NCBI RefSeq assembly: GCF_900113245.1
Contig: NZ_FOOQ01000001.1
Span: 1,178,001 to 1,242,000 of the forward strand
Source of the DNA: Halopelagius inordinatus
Lineage (GTDB): Archaea; Halobacteriota; Halobacteria; Halobacteriales; Haloferacaceae
DNA: 64,000 nt
Direction: 5' to 3'
The translations under genes and the position numbers were made by a program. The first letter of the stretch is position 1. Each line of letters begins with the position of its first letter. Shown one piece after another: positions 22,476-33,200 of the stretch. Under the pieces are notes generated by a model. The model was not told the origin of the DNA and did no database searches. It worked only from the letters and a program-made list of their open reading frames with translations.

Positions 22476-22491
22476 TTTAGGTGAGCCTAAA
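22476..22491. promoter_or_regulatory. DtxR-type iron operator upstream of the first substrate-binding protein
   Basis: TTTAGGTGAGCCTAAA is an inverted repeat with six-base arms, matching the TTAGGNNNNCCTAA form bound by haloarchaeal DtxR/SirR/Idr-type iron repressors. It lies 5-20 bp before the ATG at 22496, over the presumed initiation site, suggesting repression when iron is plentiful. Confidence 0.82.
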
Positions 22492-22495
22492 TCTC

Positions 22496-23686
22496 ATGGA
22501 ACGCGGTTCCCCGGAAGACGAGACACCGACGCGGCGCGAGTACGTGAGGTACGCCGGCGCAGTCGCCGGAGGCGGGTTACTCGCGGGCTGTACCGGCGGT
22601 AGCGGCTCCGAGTCGACGCCGAACGCGACCGAGACAGAGGCCGACGACGCGACGGGGACCGAGGCGGGCGACCCCACCGAAACCGCGCCGGACGCGTCGC
22701 ACTCGGTTGCGATGGAACCCGTCGGAACCGTCGAGTTCGACGGCGTCCCCGAAACGTGGGTCCCCTACACGGGAGATTACGCGGACATGGGCGTCGCACT
22801 CGGACGGGCCGACGGCCTCGCGGCTATCGGCGTCCGGGCCCGGTTCGGGTCGCACCTGTACGAGGAACTGCCCGGCGTCGCAGTCGAGAAAGACGACCTC
22901 ACGCAGTTGTGGCAGGACGGCACCGGCAAAGAGGTGTACTACGAACTCGACGCCGACGTCCACGTCACCGACCCGAACTTCGTGGAGAACCGCCTCGGTT
23001 GGAGTCGAGCGGACGTCGAGGAAGTCGGAGCGAACGTCGGGCCGTTCTTCGGAAACACGGTGTTCTCGCGGGCCTACGACTGGCACGACTACCGCTACTA
23101 CACGCTGTACGAGGCGTTCGAGAAGGTCGCAGAGATGTTTCAGGAACGGGAGCGTTACGAGGCGTTTTCGGACCTTCACGACGAAGTTCTCGACGACGTC
23201 GAGTCGCGTCTCCCGAGCGAGACGCCCGATATCGCGGTTCTCTACCCCGCCGACGTTCCGCCTGAGTCGTTCTATCCGTATCTCGTCGACGAGGGGACCC
23301 AGTCCAAACACTGGAACGACCTGAACGTCGGCGACGCTCTCGCCCGAAACGGCGTCACGGACGCGCAGGCGGGCGGCGGCACCATCGACTACGAGACCCT
23401 CTTGGAGATAGACCCCGACGCCGTCGCGATACGGCTCCAAGGCGAGATTACGCCGGAGTACTTCGAGGAGAACATCGTCTCGCACCTCAGAGACCACGAC
23501 GTCGCGAGCGAACTCACGGCGGTACAGAACGGCCGCGTCGTCTACGGCGGCCTGACGTACCAAGGGCCGATACTCCATCTCTTCCAACTCGAACGAGCGG
23601 CACAGGGCCTCTATCCCGAGGAGTTCGGCGACGAGCGGTTGTTCGACAGAGAGCGCGTCGCGGGCATCGTAAACGGGGAGTTCTGA
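22496..23686 (+). CDS. Iron/siderophore ABC transporter substrate-binding lipoprotein
   Basis: A 396-residue exported solute-binding protein. Twin arginines R13-R14 and the lipobox G-L-L-A-G-C32 mark a Tat lipoprotein. A Thr/Glu/Asp-rich linker follows, then a TroA/FepB-like two-lobe fold. The segment Y-D-W-H-D-Y-R-Y-Y-T-L-Y-E-A is shared with the paralogue at 24691. A DtxR box overlaps the start, pointing to iron control. ATG at 22496 is preferred to GTG at 22481, which lies within the operator. No permease or ATPase gene is near, so these genes must lie elsewhere. Confidence 0.86.
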   Translation: MERGSPEDETPTRREYVRYAGAVAGGGLLAGCTGGSGSESTPNATETEADDATGTEAGDPTETAPDASHSVAMEPVGTVEFDGVPETWVPYTGDYADMGVALGRADGLAAIGVRARFGSHLYEELPGVAVEKDDLTQLWQDGTGKEVYYELDADVHVTDPNFVENRLGWSRADVEEVGANVGPFFGNTVFSRAYDWHDYRYYTLYEAFEKVAEMFQERERYEAFSDLHDEVLDDVESRLPSETPDIAVLYPADVPPESFYPYLVDEGTQSKHWNDLNVGDALARNGVTDAQAGGGTIDYETLLEIDPDAVAIRLQGEITPEYFEENIVSHLRDHDVASELTAVQNGRVVYGGLTYQGPILHLFQLERAAQGLYPEEFGDERLFDRERVAGIVNGEF

Positions 23687-23688
23687 CC

Positions 23689-24612
23689 GTGAGTTCCGAA
23701 CCCACCTCCCGAGGAGAGGGCGCGTTCGACTACGACGTCGCCGTCGTCGGCGGCGGTCCCGCGGGATGCTCCGCGGCCGTCTTCACCGCCCGCTACGGGC
23801 TGGAGACGGCCGTGTTCGACCGCGGCCGGTCGTCGCTTCGGCGGTGCGCGTATCTGGAGAACTACCTCGGATTCCCGGCGGGCATCGACGTCGAGACGCT
23901 GTACGGGTTGTTGCACGACCACGCCGAGGAAGCGGGCTGTGAGGTGGTCTCCGACCTCGTCGAGTCCGTCGAGGTGACGGACGACCCGGAGGGGTTCGCC
24001 GTCGAAACCCAAGAGAGCGGCCGCGTCACCGCCCGACGCGTCGTCGCCGCCACGCGCTACGACGGCGAGTACATGCGCGGACTCGACGACGACGCGGAGA
24101 TGTTCGTGACCCACGACCACGGCGGCGAGGAACACGAACACTTCGACAGGGAGTACTCCGAACGCGACGGAACCACGCCGGTCGACGGTCTCTACGTCGC
24201 GTCGCCCGCAGAGGAGGCGGACCACCAAGCGATACTGGCCGCGGGCCGCGGCGCGCGAGTCGGTCTAACGGTCGTCGCAGACGCTCGCCGGGGCGACGGC
24301 TACCCCGACGCGGTTGCGAGACACTACGACTGGGTGCGCCGGGAGGCCGAACTCGACGACGAGTGGCGTTCCCGGGACCGGTGGCGCGAGTGGTTCGACG
24401 ACCGCCTCCCCGACGAAATCGACCGCGGAGCCGAGCGACTGGACGAACTCCGCGAACGGGAGATAGACCGCAGACTCGACGCGTACCTCTCGGAGGAGGA
24501 GCGAAACCGACGCACCGAACGCGGCCAGCGCCGACTGCTCGAACATCTCGACGACGAACTCGTCCTCGAAGCGGCGCGCGAAATCGAATCCGAGCGAGGG
24601 TCGACCGACTGA
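23689..24612 (+). CDS. Thioredoxin-reductase-like FAD oxidoreductase
   Basis: A 307-residue flavoprotein starting with GTG 2 bp after the substrate-binding gene. The FAD motif V-V-G-G-G-P-A-G is at about 19-26, and the 'L-E-N-Y-L-G-F-P' segment is characteristic of thioredoxin reductase. The redox-active C-x-x-C is missing, so it is not a true thioredoxin reductase; it may reduce or release ferric chelates. The C-terminal half is a charged helical extension rich in Arg, Glu and Asp, unusual for the family. Co-transcription with the iron-binding gene supports an iron role. Confidence 0.75.
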   Translation: MSSEPTSRGEGAFDYDVAVVGGGPAGCSAAVFTARYGLETAVFDRGRSSLRRCAYLENYLGFPAGIDVETLYGLLHDHAEEAGCEVVSDLVESVEVTDDPEGFAVETQESGRVTARRVVAATRYDGEYMRGLDDDAEMFVTHDHGGEEHEHFDREYSERDGTTPVDGLYVASPAEEADHQAILAAGRGARVGLTVVADARRGDGYPDAVARHYDWVRREAELDDEWRSRDRWREWFDDRLPDEIDRGAERLDELREREIDRRLDAYLSEEERNRRTERGQRRLLEHLDDELVLEAAREIESERGSTD

Positions 24613-24634
24613 ACGAGGAGGAGACGCGCATACG

Positions 24635-24652
24635 TTTTAGGGTCGCCTAAAA
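24635..24652. promoter_or_regulatory. DtxR-type iron operator, distal
   Basis: TTTTAGGGTCGCCTAAAA has perfect seven-base arms around GTCG. It lies 39-56 bp before the ATG at 24691 and just upstream of the TATA box at 24663-24668, so it could block TBP/TFB binding with the proximal box. Confidence 0.78.
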
Positions 24653-24670
24653 ATCGGTGCAGTTATATCG

Positions 24671-24688
24671 TTTTAGGCTAGCCTAAAA
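24671..24688. promoter_or_regulatory. DtxR-type iron operator, proximal (perfect 18-bp palindrome)
   Basis: TTTTAGGCTAGCCTAAAA is a perfect 18-bp palindrome ending 2 bp before the ATG at 24691. A TATA box (TTATAT, 24663-24668) lies just upstream at -28 to -23. The operator therefore covers the likely leaderless start site. It matches the haloarchaeal iron-repressor consensus. Confidence 0.85.
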
Positions 24689-24690
24689 CC

Positions 24691-25866
24691 ATGCCGAGAG
24701 AGAACGCGGTTCGCGAGTCTCAGTCGCGACGCGACTACGTCAAGTACGCTGGTGTGGTAGTCGGCGGCGGACTACTGGCGGGGTGTACCGGGGGCGCAGA
24801 CGACAGTGGGAACCAGTCGCCGACCCGAACGACCGAATCGACGACCGGAGCAGAGTCGTACACCGTCTCGATGGAACCGGTCGGCGAGGTGACGTTCGAC
24901 TCCGCGCCCGAACGGTGGGTGCCGTACGACGGCGGGTACGCCGACATGGGCGTCGCACTCGGACGGGCCGACGGATTGGCGGGTATCGGCGGCGCGGACC
25001 GCTACTACACCGACGTGTACGACGAACTACCGGGCGTGACCGTCGACCACGACCGAATCGAGGAGAACCCGGAGGTTCGAACGAAAGAACACTTCTACGA
25101 ACTCGACGCCGACGTCCATCTGTACGACCCGAAGATGCTCGAACACTGGTTCGACTGGGGACAGTCCGACGTAGACGAGATAGCCGACAACGTCGCGCCG
25201 TTCGTCGGCAACCTCATCTTCCGGCGGTCCGACGAGTGGCACGACTACCGCTACTACACGCTGTACGAGGCGTTCGAGAAGATGGCCGAGGTGTTCGACG
25301 AACGGGACCGCTACGAGGCGTTCGCGGACCTTCACGACGAGTTCGTCGCGGACATCCAGCGTCGACTGCCGCCGGAGGACCAGCGACCGAACGTGTTTCT
25401 CACCTTCGAGGGGACGGACGAACCGGAGACGTTCTCGCCGTACCGCCTCCACGACGAGGGGACGAGCAAGAAACAGTGGCGCGACTTGGGCGTTCACGAC
25501 GCCCTCTCTGGGACCGACATCGAGAACCTCAGCACCGCGAACCGCGGCGAACTCGACTACGAGACGCTCCTCGAAGTCGACCCCGAGGTGATTCTCGTCC
25601 GCGGACACGAGCGAAAGTCCGCCGCCGAGTTCCGCGAGACGGTTCTCGGCTACATGCGTGACCACCCCGTCGGCAGCGAACTCGCCGCCGTACGGAACGG
25701 GCGCGTCTACCGCGGCGGCTATCTCCACCAGGGACCCATCCACAACCTGTTTTTGACCGAACGCGCGGCACAGCAGATGTTCCCCGATATCTTCGGAGAC
25801 GTGACCGGCGACGAACGACTGTTCGACCGACAGCGAGTCGCCGACATCGTCGCCGGAGAGTTCTGA
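24691..25866 (+). CDS. Iron/siderophore ABC transporter substrate-binding lipoprotein, paralogue
   Basis: A 391-residue Tat lipoprotein (R13-R14; G-L-L-A-G-C32) clearly paralogous to the protein at 22496: both carry M-E-P-V-G, 'Y-A-D-M-G-V-A-L-G-R-A-D-G-L-A' and 'W-H-D-Y-R-Y-Y-T-L-Y-E-A-F-E-K'. It lacks the long acidic linker. The C-terminal lobe ends in the same 'D-E-R-L-F-D-R' motif. Two DtxR-type palindromes precede it. The pair may bind different ferric chelates. A permease/ATPase pair is absent from the neighbourhood. Confidence 0.86.
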   Translation: MPRENAVRESQSRRDYVKYAGVVVGGGLLAGCTGGADDSGNQSPTRTTESTTGAESYTVSMEPVGEVTFDSAPERWVPYDGGYADMGVALGRADGLAGIGGADRYYTDVYDELPGVTVDHDRIEENPEVRTKEHFYELDADVHLYDPKMLEHWFDWGQSDVDEIADNVAPFVGNLIFRRSDEWHDYRYYTLYEAFEKMAEVFDERDRYEAFADLHDEFVADIQRRLPPEDQRPNVFLTFEGTDEPETFSPYRLHDEGTSKKQWRDLGVHDALSGTDIENLSTANRGELDYETLLEVDPEVILVRGHERKSAAEFRETVLGYMRDHPVGSELAAVRNGRVYRGGYLHQGPIHNLFLTERAAQQMFPDIFGDVTGDERLFDRQRVADIVAGEF

Positions 25867-29230: not shown

Positions 29231-29240
29231 TATTATTTAA
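29231..29240 (+). promoter_or_regulatory. TATA box for the DUF7504-like/CHAT genes
   Basis: TATTATTTAA sits 24-33 bp before the ATG at 29264, a good haloarchaeal TATA position, and stands out as AT-rich in a GC-rich spacer. It probably drives both the 29264 gene and, by read-through, the CHAT gene. Confidence 0.6.
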
Positions 29241-29263: not shown

Positions 29264-30028
29264 ATGGTTCAGGGAGGCGAAACGGGCCCCGCGGGCTCCG
29301 ACGGCGCGACGGATTTCGCGCGCGCACTCAACGAACTCAAGGGACGCGGGAGCACGTTGCTCGTCGTCGGGTCCGTGCCCGAGGAGATGTACGCGAGGAT
29401 ATCCGCGAAGATGCTCGGAGACGGCGACGCGTCGAACCGCCGCCGTCTCGTCGTGACTCCAGCGGGCGCCTCCCGCAGAGACACGAGATTGGAGGGCGTC
29501 TCCCGTCGGACGCCCGAGTGGGCGCGCATCGTCGAATACGAGACGCGCGCTCGAAGTCCCGCGGCGGCCGTAGAAAGCGGAACGTCCGCCGTCTCGTCGC
29601 CCGCCTCCCCGACGAACGGCGACGGAACCGCGGACGCGGGCGTTCGCGACCCCCTCGCGAACGTCGTCGACGGGGAGATAACCGAACTCGGCGTGGAGAT
29701 AGCAAAGACGATAGCGCAGTTCGACGGTATCGCCTCGGGTCTCGCCCCGGCGGAACTCCGCGTGGCGTTCGACTGTCTCCCCTCGTTGCTCTCGGAGTAC
29801 GACCGCCGGACGGTGTTTCGGTTCCTCCACGTCCTCGGAAACAACGTTCGGTCGGTCGGCGGGATGGGCCACTTTTGGCTCCCGCAAGACCGAGAGACGG
29901 AGGTAGTGCGACTCTTCGAACCGCTGTTCGACGCCACGGTCGAACTCCGACTCGACGGCCACGAACTCGCACAACGGTGGCATTTCCGCGACGCGGAGAT
30001 ATCCTCTGAGTGGCTCTCGGTCGGGTGA
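29264..30028 (+). CDS. Degenerate KaiC/RecA-like P-loop protein (DUF7504-like)
   Basis: A 254-residue protein. 'S-T-L-L-V-V-G-S-V-P-E-E-M-Y' has the place of a Walker A loop but lacks the G-K-S/T, and the C-terminal part ('R-T-V-F-R-F-L-H-V-L', then 'L-F-D-A-T-V-E-L-R') looks like the last strands of a RecA/KaiC-type fold. A Pro/Ala/Thr-rich linker (about residues 95-130) splits it. I recall haloarchaeal family DUF7504 for such proteins, from memory only. It ends 61 bp before the CHAT gene, so the two are probably linked in function. The likely job is sensing or scaffolding, not ATP hydrolysis. Confidence 0.72.
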   Translation: MVQGGETGPAGSDGATDFARALNELKGRGSTLLVVGSVPEEMYARISAKMLGDGDASNRRRLVVTPAGASRRDTRLEGVSRRTPEWARIVEYETRARSPAAAVESGTSAVSSPASPTNGDGTADAGVRDPLANVVDGEITELGVEIAKTIAQFDGIASGLAPAELRVAFDCLPSLLSEYDRRTVFRFLHVLGNNVRSVGGMGHFWLPQDRETEVVRLFEPLFDATVELRLDGHELAQRWHFRDAEISSEWLSVG

Positions 30029-30089
30029 GCGTCGTCCCGGCGGGCGTTCACCCATACGCTTTTAGTCGAGAACGAAGACTGGTGAGATA

Positions 30090-32246
30090 ATGGACCAGTT
30101 CGGCGGTCGGACCGAGACGGGGGCGTCGAACGAGCACCTCCAACTCTCGTTTCGGACGACCGACGAGGGGACTGGACTCCTCGCGGCGGACCCGATAGAG
30201 CGACACCAGTTTCGGCTCTCGACGCCGAATCCCGTCTCGCCGACCGCTTCCGACCCCTCGGAGTTTTCGTTTCCCGCCGACGCCGCCGTCCGTATCCGAA
30301 CCGATAGAATCGACCTGCAGACGGTCGTTTCCGTCTGCGTCAGAGACGACGCCGGAGAGATGCTGGCCCGGACCGAACACTTCGCCGAGGAGTCGTTCGG
30401 CCCGGGGACGTACAGCGTCGAACTGTTCGCGCCGATAAAGCTGTATCTGCGGGTCACCGGGCCGTTCTCCGTCTCCTCTGACGCCGACCGGACGACCATC
30501 GACTTCGGCGAGGAGACGGCGGTTCTCGTCGGCGGCCGGTCGAACCACGAGCGACCGGCGGCGACGATTACGACGCCCGACGACCCGCGGGCGGTGATGG
30601 ACGCGATGTCGTATCTCGGCTCCGCGCTCAAAACGACCACCGTAGAGCGGTCGTACCCCACGCTCCGGGGACACCCGCCGCTTATCGAACGCGGCGACCG
30701 TTTCGAGGTTCCGGACGGACTGGAAGCGCCCGACACCGGCGTGACCGTGGAACTCCCCGCCGAGTACAGCTATCTCTACGTCGCAGCGCCGTTGGTGTAC
30801 TATCTCGGTGCGACGGTGAAGGAGGGCCAGACGCCGCGAATCGTCACGGACGAGGGGTTCGTCTACGACCTCGACACCCCCGCGGGATTCGAAGTCGAGG
30901 TCGAACGAGTGCTGAAACGGGCGTTCTTCCTCGACTGCCTGACGCGGACGGAGGGGTACTACGAGGTGGACCTCCACGAACGCCGGGCCGTCGAGGACGA
31001 ACTCGACGTGGAGTTCGCCGAGTTGTACGACCGGTCGCTCCCCGCGCAGTTGGAGACGTATCTCGGCGTCTCCCACGGCGTCGTCGCGGACCACGTCCCC
31101 GAGTGGAAGTTGACGGCTCACATCGCCCCGACCGCCGAAAACGTCGAAGTCGTCCCGTTCGCGGCCAACGACCTCGCGGTAGTCCGGACGCCGCGTTCGA
31201 CCCCGACGACGAGTCCGGCGGCGCAGGCGTCGGCGGTCGACGAGTTCCTGCGCACTGCCGGACCCACCGGCGGACGAGCGAGTCCGGTCGGCGACTTCAC
31301 TCGGAGCGCGACTCCCCCCGGTGCCGCGCCCGACAGAGAGTACGTCCGGCCCGAACGGACCGACTCCATAGAGCAGGCGTGGATAGGCGAGGGGACGCCC
31401 GTCGGGGCGAGCAAGGCGTCGCTGCAGGCGTACCGAAACCGCCTCGACCGCGAACCGAACGAGGGCGACATCGGCATCACCGTCGTCTGCAACGACCCGA
31501 AGATGGCCGAGGAACGCGACGTCGTCGAAGGCGTCTACGGCTCTCGCGAGGAACTCCCGTTCGACGTGCGGATGCACTACGACCTGTCGGTGGCGGAACT
31601 CCGCGACGTACTCGCGGCCGACACGGAGTTTCTCCACTACATCGGCCACATCGACGACGGCGGGTTCCAGTGTGCCGACGGCGCGTTAGACGTCTCCGCG
31701 GTGGACGACGTCGGCACCGACGCGTTCCTCCTCAACGCCTGTCAGTCGTACGAACAGGGTACCCACCTCGTCGACGCGGGCGCGATAGCGGGCATCGTGA
31801 CGCTCAACGACGTGGTGAACGGCGGAGCGGTGAAGATCGGACAGAACCTCTGTCGACTGCTCAACTCCGGCTTTCCGGTCCGGAGCGCGCTCGAAATCGC
31901 GCGAGACGATAGCGTGATCGGAAACGACTACATCGTCGTCGGCGACGGCAGTTTTTCCGTGACGCAAGTTCAGGCCGCGTTCCCCAACTCCTGTACGATC
32001 ACGCGGCGCGCAGAGAACAGAGTCGCCGTTGACTATCGAATATATCCCGGTTCGGCCAACGGGATGGGAGCACTCGTCAAACCGTTTCTGCCGGGGAACG
32101 AACAGCACTACATCGCGTCCGGGAGCGTCGACGTGTTCGAGTTGACGGAGTCGGAACTGGCCGAGTTCCTCTCTTTAGAGAACGTGCCGATTATCTCTGA
32201 CGGAGGTCTGCGGTGGAGTTCGACCACCTCGGTCGAGGATATCTGA
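30090..32246 (+). CDS. CHAT-domain (caspase-like) protein
   Basis: A 718-residue soluble protein. Residues 430-700 look like a CHAT peptidase: 'F-L-H-Y-I-G-H520-I-D-D-G' carries the His and 'L-L-N-A-C551-Q-S-Y-E' the nucleophile Cys, in the right order and spacing. The first 400 residues are beta-rich and unrecognised; a Ser/Thr/Pro linker runs about 365-420. CHAT proteins are caspase relatives in prokaryotic signalling and immunity (for example gRAMP-associated Csx29). The gene follows a degenerate P-loop protein and is convergent, by 0 bp, with a 47-residue membrane peptide. A role in controlled proteolysis is inference; substrate unknown. Confidence 0.8.
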   Translation: MDQFGGRTETGASNEHLQLSFRTTDEGTGLLAADPIERHQFRLSTPNPVSPTASDPSEFSFPADAAVRIRTDRIDLQTVVSVCVRDDAGEMLARTEHFAEESFGPGTYSVELFAPIKLYLRVTGPFSVSSDADRTTIDFGEETAVLVGGRSNHERPAATITTPDDPRAVMDAMSYLGSALKTTTVERSYPTLRGHPPLIERGDRFEVPDGLEAPDTGVTVELPAEYSYLYVAAPLVYYLGATVKEGQTPRIVTDEGFVYDLDTPAGFEVEVERVLKRAFFLDCLTRTEGYYEVDLHERRAVEDELDVEFAELYDRSLPAQLETYLGVSHGVVADHVPEWKLTAHIAPTAENVEVVPFAANDLAVVRTPRSTPTTSPAAQASAVDEFLRTAGPTGGRASPVGDFTRSATPPGAAPDREYVRPERTDSIEQAWIGEGTPVGASKASLQAYRNRLDREPNEGDIGITVVCNDPKMAEERDVVEGVYGSREELPFDVRMHYDLSVAELRDVLAADTEFLHYIGHIDDGGFQCADGALDVSAVDDVGTDAFLLNACQSYEQGTHLVDAGAIAGIVTLNDVVNGGAVKIGQNLCRLLNSGFPVRSALEIARDDSVIGNDYIVVGDGSFSVTQVQAAFPNSCTITRRAENRVAVDYRIYPGSANGMGALVKPFLPGNEQHYIASGSVDVFELTESELAEFLSLENVPIISDGGLRWSSTTSVEDI

Positions 32247-32600: not shown

Positions 32601-33200
32601 CTACGTTTCGTCGAACTCTTCGAACTCCACGTCGGCCCCGAGATCGCGATAGACGGCCTCGATGTCGTCGTCGTCGTCGAGATTCTGGAGCGTCTCGTCG
32701 AGTTCGGCTCTGAGTTCTTCGAGGCGTCCGTCGAGTTCGGTGTACTCCTCGCTGCTTTCGAGCGACGTCGCGTCTTTCTCCGATTCGAGAAGCGCCTTCT
32801 TCGAGGCGAGCGAGAACAGTTCCTTCACGCCGTCGTCGTAGGAGTTGCGCAAGAGGAGATTCGATACCGTCTCTTCCAGTGAATCCTTCGAGACGGGCTT
32901 TACGAGGTAGTCGTCGAAGCCCATGGCGACGATGTCGAAGTCCGGTTCGACTGCGGTCACCATCGCCACGCGGCACTCGAAGCCGCGATTCCGAATCTCG
33001 GTCAACGCTTCGTCGCCCGAGAGATCGGGCATCCGACGGTCCAAGAGCACCACATCTACGGCTTCGTCGAGTGCCTCGAGCGCCTCGCGGCCGCCGTAGG
33101 CGACGCGGACTCGATACTCGTCCTTGAGCCATGTTGCGTACAGGTCGGCGAGGTCCGGCTCATCTTCGACGATGAGCACGAGCGGCTGGTCAGCACTCAT
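32601..33200 (-). CDS. HalX-type response regulator
   Basis: A 199-residue response regulator. The receiver domain (1-120) has the acidic pocket E12-D13, the phosphoacceptor D54 in V-V-L-L-D-R-R-M-P, and the L-V-K-P-V lysine. Residues about 125-185 form the HalX output domain, a coiled helical hairpin found in haloarchaea ('L-x-S-K-K-A-L-L-E-S-E-K' and 'E-L-D-G-R-L-E-E-L-R-A-E-L'). No DNA-binding domain is seen, so it relays phosphoryl signals. The partner kinase is not nearby. A dyad at 33214-33228 overlaps its promoter. Confidence 0.9.
   Translation of the reverse strand: MSADQPLVLIVEDEPDLADLYATWLKDEYRVRVAYGGREALEALDEAVDVVLLDRRMPDLSGDEALTEIRNRGFECRVAMVTAVEPDFDIVAMGFDDYLVKPVSKDSLEETVSNLLLRNSYDDGVKELFSLASKKALLESEKDATSLESSEEYTELDGRLEELRAELDETLQNLDDDDDIEAVYRDLGADVEFEEFDET

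Follow-up and report, generated by a model that had tools for sequence, protein, structure and literature searches.

What would an ATPase-like protein that appears to have lost its nucleotide-binding motif do directly ahead of a caspase-like gene? Such a pair lies in Halopelagius inordinatus, within a window of 64,000 nucleotides (contig NZ_FOOQ01000001.1, positions 1,178,001 to 1,242,000, forward strand), in which all positions below are counted, apart from those that follow a locus label such as L160. The reading that we prefer, with a confidence of roughly 55%, is that the first gene codes for a pseudo-ATPase, a KaiC domain minus Walker A and the catalytic glutamates, and that this protein works as a regulator dedicated to the adjacent CHAT/separase-like protease. 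The first gene and its parts are as follows.

29233 to 29240, + strand: TATA-like element TTATTTAA, found by sequence, its centre about 27 bp upstream of the DUF7504 start codon
29264 to 30028, + strand: DUF7504 gene, 254 aa, KaiC-fold protein without Walker A
29366 to 29389, + strand: Walker A position, residues 35 to 42 (VGSVPEEM), without G-K-S/T, placed by profile and family alignments
29552 to 29653, + strand: length-variable, low-confidence loop, about residues 97 to 130 (pLDDT 51 to 61), its length differing among relatives
29756 to 29779, + strand: Walker B strand LRVAFDCL, residues 165 to 172, with Asp170
29972 to 30013, + strand: C-terminal tail from QRW (237 to 239) to W250, mark of the CHAT-linked subfamily in the family alignment

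The frame opens with an ATG at 29264 and its stop codon ends at 30028; TTATTTAA, which resembles a TATA motif, is its putative promoter element. The protein belongs to the Pfam family DUF7504 (PF24336), an entry without a stated function, with 196.6 bits against a curated cut-off of 27. This was the sole Pfam entry at E values up to 1, the KaiC profile (PF06745) giving no match, and neither NCBIfam nor a single-protein sequence search of solved structures was informative; a DUF7504 profile reached KaiC among the solved structures only at an E value of about 0.3. The genome also encodes a paralogue (L160, 6616 to 7191), a DUF7090 protein that matches DUF7504 as well, with 62.8 bits, and has a weak KaiC match (PF06745, E 0.0032, below the cut-off of that profile), which links the DUF7504 and KaiC families by sequence.

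The fold is clearer. An AlphaFold2 model built from 36 sequences, the window protein and its relatives, reached a mean pLDDT of 86.8 and a pTM of 0.82. Its top Foldseek match in the PDB was KaiC (4tlc_B, E 8.3e-7), with BcsE also among the matches, and VIA-align superposed residues 17 to 254 of the model on KaiC 7s65_A (Z 17.0, rmsd 3.0, 184 residues). These matches rule out an unrelated fold, and by its model the protein is a complete KaiC/RecA-like domain, the fold of the active ATPases of this type. The sequence-only reading had named structure prediction and fold comparison as its check, and its RecA-like fold was borne out; its view that only the last strands of that fold remain understated the case, as the model extends over the entire KaiC domain. 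It had also described a long variable linker that splits the domain: the variable stretch is real, but it is a loop inserted within the domain, and the fold is complete around it.

In the model, residues V35 to M42 come after the first core strand. A profile-profile comparison with 21 haloarchaeal KaiC-like sequences pairs VGSVPEEM with GNPGTGKS, places GSTLLVVGSVPEEM on NAAVLISGNPGTGKS of KaiC and VAFDCL on VLDSL (E 2.9e-4, probability 40%, 175 columns); with a narrower DUF7504 alignment (A4) the match was partial (E 0.0026, probability 11.6%). In KaiC-type ATPases, a pair of glutamates after the second strand is catalytic. Here LEES of KaiC pairs with TPAGA at about residues 65 to 69, where the profile alignment has no Glu. 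Since this alignment sets the register, the Walker A Lys, the Ser/Thr and the downstream glutamates can all be called absent, and what is left of the ATPase motifs is the Walker B Asp170, kept in 33 of 36 CHAT-linked relatives. The loss of Walker A that had been read from the window alone thus holds, and it is a family trait rather than a sequencing slip, because columns 37 to 43 of the 36-member alignment of CHAT-linked DUF7504 proteins contain no conserved G-K-S/T. Sequencing error or a one-off loss is ruled out by this absence throughout the subfamily.

DUF7504 as a whole is a mix of subfamilies with and without the G-K motif. Of 93 sampled members, 27 retain a G-x4-G-K core, most commonly as GPPLTGKR, with Arg where Ser/Thr would be expected, and a single sequence (L245) reads GKS. 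The same GPPLTGKR form, with the Walker A Lys retained and Ser/Thr replaced by Arg, is conserved across genera in one set of paralogues (L005 and relatives). In a tree of 107 rows, 44 of them on the CHAT side, all 27 G-x4-G-K rows are separated from all 27 CHAT-linked rows by a split with support 100/100, in a bootstrap that is not fully settled. This separation argues that the Walker A defect is old and common to the subfamily. Fourteen of the 107 rows had been taken from CHAT loci and were excluded from the comparison of gene neighbors, for which the family sample was drawn regardless of CHAT: a CHAT gene was present in the stretch read for 13 of 30 sequences on the CHAT side and for 0 of 63 on the other (Fisher 4.6e-8). 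On the CHAT side of the full tree, 17 of 44 rows lack CHAT in the stretch read, a number to be read with the flanks of L220 to L279 in mind, which are about 0.5 kb long, so that CHAT neighbors there may escape notice. The C-terminal tail follows the same division. Its residues Q237, W239 and W250 are each present in 36/36 CHAT-linked relatives, and the QRW...W pattern occurs in 22 of 30 sequences of the CHAT side and in none of the 63 of the other, which makes the tail a possible docking element.

The partner gene begins shortly downstream, and the features that matter for its activity are the following.

30060 to 30065, + strand: TATA-like element TTTTAG, found by sequence, about 27 bp upstream of the CHAT start codon
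30090 to 32246, + strand: gene for a CHAT/separase-like cysteine protease, 718 aa
31098 to 31973, + strand: caspase-fold part, residues 337 to 628, delimited by structure matches of the model
31635 to 31649, + strand: HYIGH with His516 and His520, from sequence conservation
31740 to 31742, + strand: Cys551 (in NACQS), likely the catalytic Cys, from sequence conservation

Sequence profiles see little of this protein. The 718-aa product has no match in Pfam or NCBIfam, its own profile found nothing informative among the sequences of solved structures, and the Pfam CHAT model (PF12770) misses the window copy, matching 14 of 51 members of the family at E up to 0.1 (best 7.2e-5). The structural model (pLDDT 85.8) is more telling, as residues 337 to 628 superpose on gingipain R (Z 20.7 to 20.9), SAVED-CHAT (Z 18.1, rmsd 2.3, 168 residues), separase (Z about 13 to 17, best 17.4) and Craspase/Csx29 (Z about 11 to 14). 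The product is therefore predicted to be a caspase-fold protease of the CHAT/separase/gingipain type, in agreement with the caspase-like neighbor first noted from the letters, even though the Pfam model overlooks it. His516, His520 and Cys551 are invariant in 26/26 relatives and in 37/37 paired relatives, counts that come from whole-protein searches (the corresponding 51/51 figures are biased, as the search patterns held both active-site motifs). By analogy with separase, His520 is presumably the catalytic His. The intact dyad speaks against a dead protease, so a predicted dead ATPase adjoins a protease that, by its residues, looks alive. Two relatives elsewhere (L008 and L047) are apparently broken, with the match split over two frames or an in-frame stop. 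For the N-terminal 336 residues (30090 to 31097), the matches listed in the whole-protein structure search include no clear one, which is not a sign of a new fold; the region is strongly conserved, with for example an invariant HPP around residues 195 to 197. TTTTAG, which resembles a TATA motif, lies at the right place for the CHAT gene to have its own promoter, as it may.

Both genes are widespread in the order sample of 145 genomes, 132 of which have CHAT relatives and 130 DUF7504 matches, and the CHAT family was haloarchaeal only among the 80 matches listed of 400 (the best include Halobellus and Halogeometricum). At these 80 listed loci, 12 of them from Haloferax, DUF7504 lies directly upstream, on the same strand and within 200 bp, in 36; in single cases it lies 1281 bp upstream, divergent, downstream with a weak score, or far off and abutting a second CHAT gene. 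The remaining 40, two of which end early upstream, have no DUF7504 nearby, and the wider DUF7504 family profile found no hidden partner in them; since they make up half of the loci, a CHAT gene need not have a partner beside it. Seen from the other gene, 19 of the 29 DUF7504 matches listed outside the own genome have CHAT in the 1.5-kb flank. All 15 Haloferax genomes carry both genes, with one match each at E 1e-20, adjacent by coordinates. One locus (L111, 1935 to 6003) has a CHAT gene with DUF7504 on both sides, all on the same strand. CHAT genes without DUF7504 (L117, L124, L128, L143 and similar loci) often stand between two conserved genes, the one directly upstream coding for about 225 aa and the downstream one for about 137 aa, neither with a Pfam match in the one of each that was scanned; these are possibly another set of CHAT partners.

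The two proteins also share their history. For 37 adjacent pairs, picked for adjacency from genome tables plus the window pair, the tree distances of DUF7504 and CHAT correlate with r 0.83, a value reached in none of 5,000 shuffles. Shuffling partners only within genomes gave 0/5000 as well (mean 0.45, maximum 0.80), which indicates that paralogous pairs within one genome keep their own partners. The pairing is not due to chance: chance neighbors are ruled out by the adjacency counts, the 13/30 versus 0/63 contrast and the matched trees, and the pairing proposed from this single locus proved, through the subfamily split, that contrast and the shuffles, to be non-random. Matched trees fit cognate pairs, but linked duplication or movement as a unit without contact would match too. 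We consider it possible but doubtful that the two proteins are simply neighbors within a common HalX/HalOD1 regulon that move together and act separately, DUF7504 perhaps on transcription. Linkage alone yields matched trees, many DUF7504 proteins have no CHAT neighbor, and 1 of 30 carries a DUF7344 domain, all of which this explanation accommodates; the CHAT link is nevertheless limited to one subfamily and persists on plasmids and in many contexts, which speaks against it.

The surroundings bear on the same question through one further gene.

32601 to 33200, - strand: REC-HalX response regulator, convergent with the pair, at the same place in Haloferacaceae relatives

Such a gene, which may be functionally linked to the pair, follows it in 21 of 40 DUF7504-bearing loci by script count, and also in the short locus L072, compared with 0 of 40 loci without DUF7504; the gene calls behind these counts come from a home-made codon-usage caller, which was also used for the CHAT loci without DUF7504 and for some of the DUF7504 loci without a CHAT neighbor, and the identity of REC-HalX was confirmed by Pfam in two loci. 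Where the locus extends far enough, IMP dehydrogenase comes next. The recurrence of REC-HalX beside the pair is what a shared regulon would predict, but the arrangement comes from closely related genera (Halobellus, Halogeometricum, Haloferax, Haloplanus, Salinigranum and one further Haloferacaceae archaeon), so common descent explains the block as well as function does. Elsewhere the pair is found in other contexts, including plasmids of Halorussus, Haladaptatus and Halostagnicola. In two loci directly upstream of CHAT (L280, 3543 to 4925, and L144, 4954 to 5901), HalOD1, described as an output domain of haloarchaeal signaling (PMC5847659), is fused N-terminally to DUF7504. Farther upstream in the window (22481 to 25866), a flavoprotein-like ORF lies between two ORFs that resemble each other and look like lipoproteins and binding proteins, as judged by eye.

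Plasmid copies of the pair, several in number, and the use of CHAT proteases in CRISPR systems (SAVED-CHAT, Craspase) could suggest an anti-virus module made of a sensor and a suicide protease. We regard this as improbable, given that the two DUF7504 and two CHAT proteins of two pairs found no PADLOC match at E up to 1, that the copy in the window belongs to a conserved housekeeping block that includes IMP dehydrogenase, and that CHAT is present in so many genomes (132/145). A virus-borne module is rejected, as searches of phage and viral collections turned up no relatives.

If the two proteins do act together, the pseudo-KaiC would most likely bind the protease, perhaps through the C-terminal QRW...W tail, and would keep it in the wrong state until the arrival of a signal let it act on its substrate; in some relatives the signal could come via the fused HalOD1 domain. 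The sequence-only reading had proposed a sensor or an inhibitor; that the pseudo-KaiC inhibits at rest is a guess, with activation through assembly almost equally probable. In the latter scheme the protein would be an activator or scaffold that forms oligomers as KaiC does and brings the protease together or into position, an alternative to inhibition that we treat as possible but doubtful. Activation by filaments and complexes is known for other CHAT proteases, the best structures matched by the protease model include an activated SAVED-CHAT filament, and DUF7504 has the KaiC fold (Z 17.0); against this, rings of the KaiC type usually require nucleotide at their interfaces. The N-terminal domain of BcsE, one of the fold matches, is degenerate and RecA/KaiC-like, lacks Walker A like DUF7504, and still oligomerizes and binds partners, serving protein interaction (PMC7439463). 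BcsE differs in that it works in cellulose secretion, binds c-di-GMP by another domain and has no protease.

Among the relatives of the protease, control by a regulatory part or partner is the common theme: SAVED in SAVED-CHAT, Cas7-11 with TPR for Craspase/Csx29, and securin for separase, none of these sensors being KaiC-like. In the literature searched, we found no mention of DUF7504 and none of the DUF7504-CHAT pairing; an earlier mention is possible in Makarova et al. 2017, reportedly the principal account of KaiC-like ATPases as hubs of signaling in archaea. The text of PMC6393860 contains neither CHAT nor caspase. Inactivated KaiC-like domains (iKaiC) have been described in archaeal signaling, with HalOD1-iKaiC proteins among the examples (Galperin et al. 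2018, PMC5847659), and DUF7504 resembles them in its KaiC fold with a lost ATPase motif and in the HalOD1-DUF7504 architecture found here. The available part of that paper gives other domain identifiers (PF06745, DUF835, MEDS), not DUF7504, and mentions no CHAT or caspase partner. A survey of prokaryotic metacaspases reported them in 5 of 114 archaeal genomes, its main text, where available, using neither "CHAT" nor a word starting with "Halo" (PMC3501461).

A bolder version of the regulatory reading makes the pair a core haloarchaeal stress switch, in which the pseudo-KaiC would sense salt or other stress, through a ligand in the emptied nucleotide pocket or through HalX/HalOD1 signaling, and would free the separase-like protease as the source of haloarchaeal caspase-like activity. 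We consider this very improbable. Separase and gingipains cut after basic residues, not after Asp, which lowers its probability. So does the distribution of the activity, which has been reported in Haloferax volcanii and other haloarchaea, where clear homologs are said to be lacking, but also in Methanosarcina, Pyrococcus and Sulfolobus (PMC3615174), whereas the CHAT family is only haloarchaeal among the matches listed.

"Inactivated KaiC" proteins were already known, and it is their pairing with CHAT that we have not found in print. A protease of caspase/separase fold with a KaiC-fold neighbor is present in most haloarchaea sampled and occurs once per genome in 15 Haloferax, which makes its function testable in an archaeon. 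If the regulatory reading is true, the pseudo-KaiC would represent a novel type of regulator for CHAT proteases; if the stress switch were true as well, it would tie the role of the "inactivated KaiC" proteins to the gene behind the haloarchaeal caspase-like activity.
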